A DNA stretch of 51,284 nt from a virus, in the IMG/VR virus record IMGVR_UViG_3300005518_000018, positions 1 through 51,284 of that record; one strand, 5' to 3'. The position numbers and the translations under genes were made by a program. Numbering within the stretch: position 1 is the first letter of the stretch; every line of letters begins with the position of its first letter. A model generated the notes under the pieces. That model did no database searches. It was given only the letters and a program-made list of their open reading frames with translations, and was not told the origin of the DNA. Positions 34,677-48,548 of the stretch are shown here, in pieces.

Positions 34677-37208
34677 CTAATCCTCCCATTTCCCATAGCG
34701 GTACGCTTCCCAAGCTAGAGGCACCTTAATCGGCCACGGCTGACCGTCGAGGCATACCGCCCACGAGGGCAACGACCGGCGCACTATCTCGGTGTATTCG
34801 GTTGCATTGTATTCGGGACGGTCGGGCACCTCGGCCAATTGTTCGTCGTGCGTGTGCATGACGATGTTGTATTCGCGAGGCTGCGCGTACTCCAACGCCA
34901 CAAGCGCATTCGCCTGTATCTCGCGGCACATGTGAGAGATTACGTTCTGTGTCAGTACGCCGCCGTACAACTTCATAGGTATCCAACCGACCGCCCCTTT
35001 TTGGGTGTTCGTGTTGTAGCCCATGTAGGTTATTTCGTATTCCCACGGCCTTGCATAGTCGCGCGTAGACTGGCGCAACCTCGGCGAATGGTAACGAATG
35101 AAGCCGCCCGATGGTGGACGGCAATACAGAATATCGTCGTGTACCTCGTACAGTACACCTAGCGGCGAACCGGGGCGCGAGCTGAAGCACTGGCCCGGTT
35201 GCTGAATGGCCGAAACAACAGCACCTTCGAGCCCGTAAAGCAACGGCGTTTCGGTATCACCGAACTTATCCCAAGTCTGGCCGCCCCAAAATTGGCGCAC
35301 GTTCGGTATCTCTTCCCAAAGGTCGAGAATTAGCTTTTTTACTTCGGCGTCGGTGCCGAGACATTTTTCTTTGTCGAGCTTGCGCCATCCGCCAATCCAC
35401 GAGCCGAAGTCGCCCGATAGTACGGTCATCTTCCCGTATACCTGTCGGTCGGGATGATGCTTGCCGTGTTGCTTCTTAAAGTCGAGGTAATACTGCAACG
35501 GTTGCTTGCGTAGCTTGCTCATCATGGCTTCGTAAATCTTCCCGTGCGTGCGGAAGACTTCGATACGCCATTGCTCGTTAGCCATGCACGACGTACCGAC
35601 CGCCTGTATAGCGGTGAAGTCGGCCGAGATTAGCTTGTGACCGGGCCGCGCAACGATCATCGACCGTAGACAGCTAGCGATTACTTCGAGCGCGTCGAGC
35701 GCACCAATGTCGGGGTTTTCGCGAGCCCATTGCGAACCCTCGCCATATTCCCATTCTATCAACTCTAGGTTACGCGTCCGAATAAGAGACAGGGCGCGCT
35801 CGACTTGCTCGGGCTTGCTGAAGACGCCTTTATAAAGATTCGCGGGCTGCACGTCGCGCCCGTTCCATAGTGCGGTGTGGGCGCCATAATAGCTGTACTG
35901 ATCGAAGAGCCTGCCATACGGCGTCGTCTGTGCTCGAAGCGCGAAGTATTTGCGGACGCTACCGAACGCCAATTCTTGACGGATGCGAAGCACACGTTGC
36001 ACGACGCGCGGATAGTCTTTGCGACCTAGCGCAGCTTCGAGCGCTTCCTTATCGAGTTTCGCGAGGTACACGCCTTGCGTCTTACACCATTCGACTATAT
36101 CGGCGACCTCGGTGTATTTGCGTACGAAGCCGTTCGTTAGCGTCGTGAGTTCGGCGTTAGCTTTATGCTCGACTTGCAGAATGATCGCAATACAGTCTTC
36201 GACACTTTGCGTATCAATTTGCATCCCGCGCATGTTGCAACGAAGGTCGAAGAGCCATATAGGCAACTCACGGTCGGTAAGATCGGGCGTCTTCGCGCTT
36301 GCCTCGGCCTCGGTGCGACAGTCTTGTATGTTGTAATCGTAGAACTTTTGAAAGTCTTCCTTCGCCGTAAGCGGCGTCCAACGTAGCGCGGGGTTGGCCT
36401 TGGTCGGATTGCGCGGGCGCGTGAGCTTGCCTATCAGCTTCTTTCCGGCCGCGTCTTTCTGTTGAGTCAGGTTGCGCGCTTTACCGAACTCTTCGAGCTG
36501 ACCGGGATACGCTGCGGCGCGAGCCTTCGCCATAGCATCGCGGCATTGTTCCTGTTTCAAAAACGGGGCGTCGAATTTGACGCACATGTGGAAGTTCCAC
36601 ACGACCCATTCAAAATTGATATTCCACGCTTCGAGGATGCCGCCCGCGCGAATGAAGTCGTACAGCTCGCCGGGTTCCCACGGGCTGACGTAATTGCCTC
36701 GACGCGTAGCGGGGAAAAGATCGTCTAGCGTTTCGTCCGTCATAGGACGCCACCAACGGTCGCCCTTGCCGTCTTTCAGGTTCCATGCGAGAGACAACAC
36801 GCGGAACGATGGGTGCTCGACGTAGTTACGTGTACCGACGGCTTTCAGCCCGCGATTCTGGTCACCTAGACCGGGCGGCGACTTCCACGCCTCGCCGTCC
36901 CATCGATACCCGGCCTCGCTGAATGTCTCAAAATCGGCTTCCGGGTAGATCGTCGCTAAACCGTTCTCGCACGCGACTTGATCGTATGCGCGAAGCTCGT
37001 CGAAGGGTACGTTGCGAAGGAAGCCGCGCGAGTCGGCTAGCCATGTGCCGTTGCGCTTAACGTGGTACGTGTTGCCGCGTGCAGGTTGCGACGTGTACGG
37101 AAGGGGCTGTTGCGGCGTGGGCGCTATCGGTCGCGCGTTGTAGTCTATCGGTACGACAATGCCGGGGCCTTGACCCCAATCGCCGTAAGTAATGGTGAAT
37201 GCGGTCAA
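34677..37208 (-). CDS. DNA polymerase, family A, with 3'-5' exonuclease domain
   Basis: 843 aa from a TTG at 37208 with GAGG six bases upstream; no in-frame ATG or GTG lies nearby. Exonuclease motifs: D92-F-E94 (Exo I), N196-I-N-F-E200 (Exo II, usual Asp replaced by Glu), Y292-x3-D296 (Exo III). Polymerase motif A SADFTAIQAVG has D530 but Q535 where Pol I has the steric-gate Glu. Motif B runs R588 to G602 (R588, K593), and motif C is H787-D788-E789. There is no 5'-3' exonuclease. It replicates the phage genome together with the ssDNA-binding, primase-helicase and nuclease genes nearby. Confidence 0.88.
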   Translation of the reverse strand: MTAFTITYGDWGQGPGIVVPIDYNARPIAPTPQQPLPYTSQPARGNTYHVKRNGTWLADSRGFLRNVPFDELRAYDQVACENGLATIYPEADFETFSEAGYRWDGEAWKSPPGLGDQNRGLKAVGTRNYVEHPSFRVLSLAWNLKDGKGDRWWRPMTDETLDDLFPATRRGNYVSPWEPGELYDFIRAGGILEAWNINFEWVVWNFHMCVKFDAPFLKQEQCRDAMAKARAAAYPGQLEEFGKARNLTQQKDAAGKKLIGKLTRPRNPTKANPALRWTPLTAKEDFQKFYDYNIQDCRTEAEASAKTPDLTDRELPIWLFDLRCNMRGMQIDTQSVEDCIAIILQVEHKANAELTTLTNGFVRKYTEVADIVEWCKTQGVYLAKLDKEALEAALGRKDYPRVVQRVLRIRQELAFGSVRKYFALRAQTTPYGRLFDQYSYYGAHTALWNGRDVQPANLYKGVFSKPEQVERALSLIRTRNLELIEWEYGEGSQWARENPDIGALDALEVIASCLRSMIVARPGHKLISADFTAIQAVGTSCMANEQWRIEVFRTHGKIYEAMMSKLRKQPLQYYLDFKKQHGKHHPDRQVYGKMTVLSGDFGSWIGGWRKLDKEKCLGTDAEVKKLILDLWEEIPNVRQFWGGQTWDKFGDTETPLLYGLEGAVVSAIQQPGQCFSSRPGSPLGVLYEVHDDILYCRPPSGGFIRYHSPRLRQSTRDYARPWEYEITYMGYNTNTQKGAVGWIPMKLYGGVLTQNVISHMCREIQANALVALEYAQPREYNIVMHTHDEQLAEVPDRPEYNATEYTEIVRRSLPSWAVCLDGQPWPIKVPLAWEAYRYGKWED

Positions 37209-37225
37209 GCTCGGCCTCGTCCGTT

Positions 37226-37280
37226 CCCGCTGCCATCGTAGCGCCTCCCCTTGTCTACAGGGTGCCCCGGTGGCAGCGGG
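37226..37280 (-). promoter_or_regulatory. Inverted repeat/hairpin ahead of the DNA polymerase gene
   Basis: Leftward transcript: CCCGCTGCCA and TGGCAGCGGG are perfect 10-base arms about 35 bases apart, and an inner CCCT/AGGG pair encloses GTAGACA. The loop contains the strong ribosome site AAGGGGAGG and the ATG at 37236 (out of frame with the polymerase). The structure could mask translation initiation. Confidence 0.5.
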
Positions 37281-37291
37281 TTCGGGTTCAA

Positions 37292-38480
37292 TCAGTACGG
37301 TATATCGGCGTCACCGAACGCAGCGCGGTCGGCTTCACTTTGATACGCCCTCACGTAGTCAAAGTTTCACCATATGGCCGTTCTGAATCAACTGCGCGTC
37401 GCTCCAGTTGTTCGCGCGGTACGCCTCATAACGAGCCCCGGCAGGGTTCGCCATGCGGTAACCAGCCGGTGCCCCCGCCGGGCATACGTACGCCGCTACC
37501 GGGGCCGCCGGGGCTGAAGGGGCCGCCGGGCCGGCAGGCGGCGAGTATGACGACGGTACGCCACCGCCGCCCGGCATTGAAGGGACGCCAGCACCGGCCA
37601 CAGGCGGCGCGATGAATCCCGCGTGAGGCTGCACGGCGACCGGCATGCCGCCGGGGGTGCCACCCGGAACGCCTGCGGCCGGATAACCGCCCGGTACGCC
37701 GTTCGGTACACCGCCGGGAACGCCACCCGGAACGCCTGCGGCCGGATAACCGCCCGGTACGCCGTTCGGTACACCGCCGGGAACGCCACCCGGAACGCCC
37801 GGTACTGCCGCGCCCGGCATGCTCGGCGACGCGCCACCCAACGAGGCAACCTGCACGCCCGCCGGTAACGCAGCCGTACCGAATCCGAGCGAGCTGACCG
37901 GCGTCGAGACCGAGATAACGTCAGACGGGCCGCCACCGCGATACACCACATGCTCGTGATTGATGTACACGCCGGGGTTGCTCGCGCGCTCGTTGCTTGC
38001 GAGGTTCGCGTTGACTTCGACGTAGTACCCGCATTTCACGAGGTCTTTCTGCGGGAGCGCCACGAAGCCACCGTTAGCGACTTCCCACACCTTCGGCGCG
38101 ATGCCCGACGACAGGTTGATAATCCAGCAACCCGGCATACCTTCGGTGCGCGCGTTCACGCGGCCTTTCTTGTTCGGCTTCAGGCTGTCGCCGTCCTGAA
38201 TCTTCCACGCGAACCCCTCGTGCTGCCATTGACCCACCGGCCATGCCTGCTGGCCGAGTGTCAAAATCGGTCCACCCCATGACTCTTCCCACCAATTCGC
38301 GCGCGTCTTCGGCACGGCGATTGCGAAAAAGTACGTCCATTTCGGTTGCCCCGCTTTCGCGTGGCCCGCTTCATAGACGCGCTTCTTACCGTCAATGTCC
38401 GTATCGTCGGGGTTATAGAGGTCACCCTGCACGATACGTGCGAGGGGAAACCGAATTGCGGCGCTTAACTTAGTCGTCAT
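37292..38480 (-). CDS. ssDNA-binding protein, predicted +1 frameshift long form
   Basis: The zero frame ends CTT TGA C (37364-37358), identical to the core of the RF2 (prfB) programmed frameshift site. A +1 slip from CTT to TTT continues through 22 further codons, DYVRAYQSEADRAAFGDADI then PY, to TGA at 37292-37294, giving 395 aa. The new C-terminus DADIPY resembles the acidic tip (DDIPF) by which SSB recruits partner proteins. An RF2-like AGGGGG stimulator is not present; GGTGA upstream might weakly pair with 16S rRNA. Predicted, not proven. Confidence 0.55.
37359..38480 (-). CDS. ssDNA-binding protein, DUF2815-like, zero-frame form
   Basis: 373 aa. The N-terminal 190 residues match phage DUF2815-type ssDNA-binding proteins (LARIVQGDLYNPDDTDIDGK; WTYFFAIAVPKTR; GYYVEVNANLASNERASNPG; VYINHEHVVYRG). 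Residues about 215-320 are Pro/Gly/Val repeats including two identical 21-residue units (GVPGGVPGGVPNGVPGGY then PAA). The last part (WSDAQLIQNGHMVKL) is a short conserved tail motif. It coats single-stranded DNA at the fork. Neighbours are polymerase and nuclease. Confidence 0.8.
   Translation of the reverse strand: MTTKLSAAIRFPLARIVQGDLYNPDDTDIDGKKRVYEAGHAKAGQPKWTYFFAIAVPKTRANWWEESWGGPILTLGQQAWPVGQWQHEGFAWKIQDGDSLKPNKKGRVNARTEGMPGCWIINLSSGIAPKVWEVANGGFVALPQKDLVKCGYYVEVNANLASNERASNPGVYINHEHVVYRGGGPSDVISVSTPVSSLGFGTAALPAGVQVASLGGASPSMPGAAVPGVPGGVPGGVPNGVPGGYPAAGVPGGVPGGVPNGVPGGYPAAGVPGGTPGGMPVAVQPHAGFIAPPVAGAGVPSMPGGGGVPSSYSPPAGPAAPSAPAAPVAAYVCPAGAPAGYRMANPAGARYEAYRANNWSDAQLIQNGHMVKL
37661..37798. 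repeat. Tandem 63-bp repeat in the ssDNA-binding protein gene
   Basis: Two identical 63-bp copies (37661-37723, 37724-37786) and a partial third (37787-37798). They encode a 21-residue Val-Pro-Gly-Gly-rich unit. Perfect identity implies a recent duplication, and the linker length is probably variable. Confidence 0.9.
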
Positions 38481-47788: not shown

Positions 47789-47998
47789 TCAAAAGGGAAT
47801 GTCGTCGGTCTCGGCCGCTTTCGACACGACCGGGTGCCACGCCCAATAGACGGCCGTTGCGGTCGTAGCGTCCCATTTGCGTTCGTGCACGAGGCGCACG
47901 TAAAGGCGGTGGGCGCGTTCAGTGCTGGCCCACGGCCCGCGCTTACCCTCGGCAATGATCGCCGCAACGTCGGCGTTTAATGCGTCAGAAAGGAACAT
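47789..47998 (-). CDS. Small protein with SSB-like C-terminal tip, 69 aa
   Basis: From ATG 47998, overlapping the previous gene by 14 bases. Helical: MFLSDALNADVAAIIAEGKR, then TERAHRLYVRLVHERKWDAT. The last residues AETDDIPF reproduce the conserved acidic tip of bacterial SSB. It is too small for an OB fold, so it may bind SSB-partner proteins such as exonuclease I, RecQ or PriA; this is an inference. Ends at palindrome copy 3. Confidence 0.65.
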   Translation of the reverse strand: MFLSDALNADVAAIIAEGKRGPWASTERAHRLYVRLVHERKWDATTATAVYWAWHPVVSKAAETDDIPF

Positions 47999-48548
47999 CG
48001 GGGCCGGGCTCACCGCTGAAGCCTGAGACCCCCGGCGCACTGTGTACGTGTTCAAAGTCATCCGTCTCGTACTCACGCGCCCAACGTCGCGAGGCGAAGT
48101 ACAGGCGGTTGCGCTCGGCAACGTTCTCGACGTGCGGCGCTATGCGGACGTTGCCAACCTTGTACGGCCCCTCGTCACCGTGGCGAGCCATGACGTAACC
48201 GTCGGCACAGTTACCGCGCTCGTCCCAATGCCCCGAGGCTTCCCATATCTCGCACCATTCGGCGTAGCTCAATTCCCACGGCACGCCGCGCGTGTCGGCG
48301 TTGTCCTTCTGTTGCTTGAACTTACCCCGAGGTGATTGCGCGAAACGCTTACGCGCGGCTGCCTGCCGGGCTGCGCGCTCGGCCGGGGTCTTGGCGTGGG
48401 TTCGCGGGATACGCCGCGCTAGCCATTCGTCGAGCGCGTAGGGAAAGGGTTTACCTCGACCCTCGGCCTTTCGCTTTGCGTCGAGGTATTGCCGTCGATT
48501 CAGACGTGCCGTTTTATCCACGGCGCTACGGCGAAGATTAGAGCCCAT
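47985..48548 (-). CDS. HNH-type phage protein, 187 aa
   Basis: From ATG 48548. The N-terminal half is very basic (KTARLNRRQYLDAKRKAEGR; ARRIPRTHAKTPAERAARQA). The second half has the pattern WELSYAEWCEIWEASGHWDE, YVMARHGDEGPYKVGNVRIA, PHVENVAERNRLYF, common to phage HNH-like/homing-type proteins; a complete HNH zinc centre is not obvious. The C-terminus GPDVPF again loosely resembles an SSB tip. Confidence 0.62.
   Translation of the reverse strand: MGSNLRRSAVDKTARLNRRQYLDAKRKAEGRGKPFPYALDEWLARRIPRTHAKTPAERAARQAAARKRFAQSPRGKFKQQKDNADTRGVPWELSYAEWCEIWEASGHWDERGNCADGYVMARHGDEGPYKVGNVRIAPHVENVAERNRLYFASRRWAREYETDDFEHVHSAPGVSGFSGEPGPDVPF

Follow-up and report, generated by a model that had tools for sequence, protein, structure and literature searches.

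A comparison of homologous gene ends makes it very probable that a phage ssDNA-binding protein (SSB) is made in two forms by a +1 slip at the end of its gene, the long form carrying a C-terminal tip. The gene lies in an uncultured viral contig (IMG/VR record IMGVR_UViG_3300005518_000018, positions 1-51,284), and the whole stretch of 51,284 nucleotides that was analysed is called the window in the following. The features of the gene and of its end are:

37359..38480, minus strand: predicted ssDNA-binding protein, zero-frame product of 373 aa (ORF, PHROG 7011, AlphaFold model)
37648..37799, minus strand: 63-bp tandem repeat, 2.4 copies, coding part of the Pro/Gly-rich linker (Val-Pro-Gly-Gly-type repeats)
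37365..37373, minus strand: ATG GTG AAA ahead of the shift codon, with a putative role in the shift; ATG GTG is invariant in the closest group
37358..37364, minus strand: candidate shift site CTT TGA C (P-site CUU, A-site stop UGA, +4 base C); CTT + stop in 10/10 of the closest group and in 0/141 tipless relatives
37359..37361, minus strand: zero-frame stop TGA; TGA, TAG or TAA among relatives
37295..37360, minus strand: +1-frame extension of 22 codons, DYVRAYQSEADRAAFGDADIPY, which begins GAC TAC GTG on skipping T37361
37295..37312, minus strand: acidic SSB-like tip DADIPY; each of the nine other members of the closest group has an acidic IPF tip in its +1 frame
37292..37294, minus strand: stop of the +1 extension, TGA

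The zero frame of the ORF 38480..37359 (373 codons) ends GGC CAT ATG GTG AAA CTT TGA and is followed by C. The first-pass annotation was right that this end, CTT TGA C (37364..37358, minus strand), is identical to the core of the prfB signal and that the +1 frame stays open for 22 codons, up to DADIPY and a stop at 37294..37292. A bacterial-SSB-like tip has acidic residues followed by I-P-aromatic at the extreme C terminus, and DADIPY has this form. The window SSB has an acidic C-terminal tail in its +1-frame product only, the zero-frame product being without one. The heptamer CTTTGAC is found six times in the window against 4.8 expected and taken alone is no rarer than chance, therefore the case rests on the position of the site and on its conservation.

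Identity of the SSB gene

By family and predicted fold the window gene is a T7/Enc34-type SSB, and ssDNA binding is predicted for its product. The 373-aa protein consists of an OB-fold domain (residues ~1-205), a Pro/Gly-rich linker and the C-terminal motif YEAYRANNWSDAQLIQNGHMVKL. It matches PHROG 7011, 'Gp2.5-like ssDNA binding protein and ssDNA annealing protein', with E=2e-48. The AlphaFold model of residues 1-219 has a pLDDT of 84, and Foldseek finds for it nine matches with E<1e-3 in the PDB, every one a DUF2815/Enc34/T7 gp2.5 SSB, including the DUF2815 proteins 4klk (6e-10) and 4jg2 (5e-7), the Enc34 entries 5odj/k/l (3e-8 for 5odl) and T7 gp2.5 (1je5, 1e-5). The assignment to DUF2815 in the first-pass annotation thus holds for the fold, but not for the Pfam profile PF10991 (Enc34 ssDNA-binding protein, formerly DUF2815), with which the window protein has no match. 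Two relatives score 16.5 bits (contig L088) and 24.6 bits (phage 9NA) against a gathering cut-off of 26. The window SSB is not filed under PF10991 because its sequence is distant, although the fold is the same.

In the window the ssb gene is flanked by a DUF2800/exonuclease gene on one side and a DNA polymerase gene on the other, a gene order which is also found in Vibrio CP-T1, 9NA and others. The frame of the polymerase gene itself opens at TTG (37208), and out of frame with it lies a 59-aa ORF (37057-37236, minus strand) which starts with ATG behind a strong Shine-Dalgarno sequence (AGGGGAGG). As with the 63-bp repeat in the linker of the window ssb, a repeat region is annotated within ssb in phage Sasha (L114).

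Conservation of the gene end in the closest group

Used as a single query against viral and genome contigs, the window protein gave no matches; alignment-based scans of viral contigs yielded nine relatives (L088, L115, L116, L119, L120, L121, L122, L221, L223), which together with the window form a group of ten distinct sequences called branch A here. Its members have the C-terminal motif GAPAG[YFH]RM...GHMV[KR]L in common. Homologue comparison had been set beforehand as a test that could refute the proposed frameshift, and every close homologue turned out to have CTT + stop and an acidic +1 tip: the zero frame ends ATG GTG NNN CTT + stop in 10/10, with the +1 frame open past the stop. Seven members have the tip DDDIPF, the window has DADIPY, and the remaining two have DDPIPF and DDEIPF. 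DADIPY resembles the C-terminal tip of bacterial SSB, as had been noticed from the single sequence, and also the acidic tail of T7 gp2.5. The stop codon is TGA in seven members, TAG in two (L088, L115) and TAA in one (L120). UGA with C at position +4 is found in the window and in L223, whereas the other members have UGA G, UAG C or UAA C.

CTT as last codon is found in 10/10 members of branch A and in 0/141 tipless relatives (Fisher p = 8e-16, phylogeny ignored), while CTT accounts for 9% of the Leu codons in the branch A ORFs and for 15% in the long genes of the window. Weak stops are enriched in branch A, TGA or TAG being present in 9/10 against 42/141 (p=2.5e-4, phylogeny ignored), and the +4 base in branch A is C or G, T being found in 0/10 against 56/141 (p=0.014, phylogeny ignored). 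These p-values overstate independence, because branch A is close to one clade. The sounder argument from the sequences is that CTT is constant within branch A while the stop, the flanks and the linker vary.

The stretch between stop and tip comprises 11-26 codons in branch A and is barely alignable, and the tip is retained. Among the tip codons 12 columns are variable, of which seven lie at the third, four at the second and one at the first position of the +1 frame. Counted pair by pair, the members differ 136/48/9 times at +1-frame positions 3/2/1. Differences mainly at third positions of the +1 frame indicate constraint on the +1 peptide.

Sequences around the site

The prfB gene carries its stimulator AGGGGG three bases before CUU. 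This classical upstream stimulator is absent before CUU in the window, as had been noted before; instead branch A has an invariant GGUG three bases ahead of CUU, which is weakly Shine-Dalgarno-like. Its duplex with the anti-Shine-Dalgarno sequence has an energy of -5.8 kcal/mol against -10.7 kcal/mol for the prfB control, and in the anti-Shine-Dalgarno register it lies about two bases further upstream than the prfB stimulator. From this weak pairing a modest shift efficiency would be expected, which suits a minority form bearing the tip. Strong, stable downstream hairpins within the +1 extension are found in L119, L121, L122 and L221 (z about -4 to -5), but the hairpin is weak in the window (z -1.5) and absent in L223. 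Because hairpin strength differs among the members, branch A has no shared 3' stimulator.

Tips in more distant relatives

The second group with +1 tips, branch B, comprises 9NA-like and Gorgan-like phages, most of them cultured: Salmonella 9NA, Sasha and SP069, Klebsiella e270.1, Carvaje and BU9, Escherichia Bas82, Morganella Henu15, Proteus 2207-N35, Tbat2_2 and one IMG/VR contig (L012). UUU_C and a +1 tip of the type WD[DN]IPL are present in 11/11 examined. In these genes the zero frame has a PxFLxG-type motif near its end and stops soon after, and the +1 frame crosses this stop. The Phe codon of the motif is TTT followed by C in 11/11, while tipless relatives with the same motif use TTC; the contrast is modest, since these are mostly close kin of SppYZU01. 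We infer that UUU_C is the shift site of branch B, where tRNA-Phe could move from UUU to UUC. The +1 continuation would read STVTVTDSYWNWDNIPL after PNF in Bas82 and SQVTVTDSYWNWDDIPL after PGF in 9NA, the zero-frame C terminus being NGNGY. The end region of 9NA is matched without gaps by 24 records, and many of the branch B sequences come from cultured isolates that were sequenced independently.

Branch C consists of Rhizobium P106B, X2_24 and contig L176. The zero frame ends CGA TAA in 3/3. Its +1 counterpart contains a Cys-rich stretch, with CxxC...CxxC in P106B and X2_24, ahead of a tip that reads DDDIPF or DDCIPW. CGA_UAA is the candidate for the exact shift site of this branch, with less certainty than the sites of the other branches. 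In these Rhizobium-type sequences (L008, L103, L176) the Cys-rich stretch before the acidic tip is zinc-knuckle-like (CVKCGRPNRYGRPFSNGLCFIC in L008).

In the trees the three branches are located at three separate places among tipless relatives, which points to several gains or losses. Branch B is on one side of a branch at 94 and branch C of one at 100; branch A requires two changes, as the N-terminal domain of the window groups with tipless contigs. The comparison suggested by the first-pass annotation, whether homologues encode the tip in frame, gave a positive answer for some distant ones: three relatives (L049, L072, L079) have it in the zero frame, which supports the tip as a feature of this SSB family.

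In total 164 distinct closed ORFs were classified, of which 20 carry a +1 tip and three a zero-frame tip; L086 has a weak -1 candidate, and all others are without a tip. Two regex matches, L084 (DKLPRG) and L206 (FDYVP), were dropped from this tally on inspection as false positives. In L086 an open stretch in the -1 frame runs past the ssb stop and ends PVCDAIPF; this single weak case is possibly due to chance and was counted as tipless in the statistical tests. Since 141/164 ORFs are tipless, the tip is inessential to the family. Four later +1 cases (L221, L223, L233, L234) bring the distinct +1 tips to 24. A search for prophages found two tipless Acetobacteraceae MAG loci only.

As a background set we used the ends of 1191 other ORFs from the same DNA, in which the strict tip pattern occurs in shifted frames only as re-readings of the ssb tips, of the tip of a polymerase-half ORF in contig L161 and of an ORF at window 47789-48139. 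The latter, on the minus strand, starts from TTG, encodes 110 aa with an SSB-like tip at the end (WHPVVSKAAETDDIPF), belongs to no PHROG family and is located downstream of the primase gene, where ORFs on the plus strand lie opposite it. The ORF L161:4528-5586 is a truncated polymerase ORF (exonuclease half) ending PDFDYDNEIPF, an acidic IPF tip, and apparently represents a split polymerase.

ALTERNATIVES

The first-pass annotation had proposed a ratio of the two forms that is set by RF2 or by termination efficiency. If regulation were specific for RF2 as in prfB, the ratio would sense the RF2 of the host. CUU UGA C is indeed identical to the prfB core (PMC5289835), and TGA is the stop in 7/10 of branch A. 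However, L088 and L115 have TAG, which is read by RF1, and L120 has TAA within the same layout, and branches B and C use other sites. RF2-specific regulation was therefore rejected as a general rule, and we give it a small chance; the other half of the proposal, slow termination, fits the mixture of stops better. It is the variability of the stop codon that distinguishes slippage on CUU from regulation by RF2.

The tip could also be a fossil, an ancestral in-frame tip that was lost by a frameshift mutation and left behind a tipless protein only. In its favour, most relatives are tipless and the linkers between stop and tip can barely be aligned. But decay predicts deterioration of the tip and drift of the last codon to other Leu codons, while the +1 tips are intact across members whose upstream proteins are 49-86% identical to that of L088, and CTT + stop is kept in all of branch A. 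That changes in the +1 frame fall mostly on third positions disfavours a decayed gene as well, so that we regard this origin as quite improbable.

A separate small gene in the +1 stretch, translated by re-initiation after the ssb stop, we consider highly improbable. Two codons past the shift the +1 frame of the window does contain a GTG (a 20-aa ORF), and ATG, GTG or TTG codons are found in the +1 stretch of some relatives. The stretches of L088, L115, L008 and L176, however, contain none of the three, which disfavours re-initiation, and re-initiation gives no need for a conserved CTT.

Being an uncultured IMG/VR contig, the window might contain a sequencing or assembly error, and a one-base indel in TTT would suffice to hide a true gene that reads CTTGAC in frame and always has the tip. 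In ten distinct contigs, however, the frame is broken at one and the same codon, by TGA, TAG or TAA, and branch B has its many independently sequenced isolates; judged on these sequences an error is excluded for the family as a whole, and we hardly credit it at all. Transcriptional slippage, which gives two products per gene in some mobile elements, is extremely improbable as the source of a shifted mRNA, as it normally needs a long run while the longest homopolymer at the site has three bases, and it leaves the stop directly after CTT unexplained.

Proposed mechanism and comparison with known systems

For the +1 slip on CUU, the reading we prefer, we infer the slippage itself, its rate and the binding partners of the tip as follows. 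Most ribosomes would terminate at the UGA that follows CUU, with the tipless 373-aa form as their product. In some, while the stop in the A site is slow to be read, peptidyl-tRNA-Leu would slip from CUU to UUU as in prfB; GAC UAC GUG would then be read and 22 residues added, giving a 395-aa form that ends DADIPY. Any stop that is read slowly after the slippery CUU, rather than RF2 specifically, would set the ratio. The short form may coat or anneal ssDNA, while the long form may hold DNA binding in check and recruit replication or repair partners (the adjacent phage polymerase or SSB-binding proteins of the host). The shift rate would fix the number of tips per filament or oligomer, mixed filaments carrying a set fraction.

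In prfB CUU UGA CNN is read as CUU GAC NNN (PMC5289835). The window shares with it the identical core CUU UGA C, the direction, the proposed slip on CUU U and the stop in the A site. The prfB shift, however, is needed for most of the protein, while the window site is 3'-terminal and would append only a short tail; and prfB combines AGGGGG and UGA with autoregulation of a release factor, whereas here AGGGGG is missing, UAG and UAA are allowed in relatives, and the product is an SSB. The site would thus work like prfB but is not filed as a member of RF2 autoregulation. Programmed +1 frameshifting is also known from structural genes of Listeria phage PSA (cited in PMC4759687). PSA and the window would have +1 shifts in phage genes in common, but those of PSA concern structural proteins and that of the window a replication/recombination protein with a protein-interaction tip.

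In the tau/gamma system of dnaX frameshifting sets the ratio of replication-protein forms with and without a partner-binding C terminus. There a -1 shift yields the short form, whereas in the window ssb a +1 shift would yield the long one. Bacterial SSBs have the acidic tip (DDDIPF type) in frame on every subunit, and the phage tips DDDIPF and DADIPY are likewise located at the extreme C terminus. As DDDIPF, found in most of branch A, is the bacterial SSB tip, capture of host SSB-binding proteins by these tips is plausible by analogy.

An acidic C-terminal tail is typical of T7 gp2.5/Enc34-type SSBs (PMC5686142). In those proteins, which by AlphaFold and Foldseek have the same fold as the window SSB, it is encoded in frame, while the zero-frame product of the window is tipless and a tip is encoded in the +1 frame only. 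Enc34 SSB deprived of its acidic tail binds dsDNA in addition to ssDNA, and the tail of the T7 protein has been implicated in contacts with the polymerase and the primase-helicase (PMC5686142). These data suggest that tipped and tipless subunits would differ in how they recruit partners and in the specificity with which they bind DNA. The Enc34 paper (PMC5686142) does not mention a frameshift, and no description of one in this SSB family was found in the open-licence full-text literature searched; the first-pass annotation, too, knew of no case in DUF2815 proteins.

Significance

Conserved programmed +1 frameshifts are rare. Programmed +1 frameshifting as in prfB and PSA and SSB tips are each known, while no +1 shift that would attach an SSB tip, conserved in several phage lineages at different sites, was found in the open-licence literature searched. 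For the branch B phages 9NA, Sasha, Carvaje, Bas82 and others the tipless form alone is annotated, which suggests that annotation pipelines miss such tips.

Taking the three branches together, we lean towards the wider view that a tip added by frameshift is a recurrent, convergent control of the fraction of tipped subunits in T7/Enc34-type phage SSBs, with at least three lineages and three +1 sites (CUU_stop, UUU_C, CGA_UAA), and that in some of them DDDIPF serves as a mimic of the host SSB tip by which SSB-binding proteins of the host are captured. The +1 shift would here decide whether a central protein of replication and recombination carries the SSB tip by which it meets its partners. The long-standing question of how many SSB tails are needed, and why, thereby becomes testable in a natural system, in which point changes of the shift site should lock the phage as tipless-only or tip-only.
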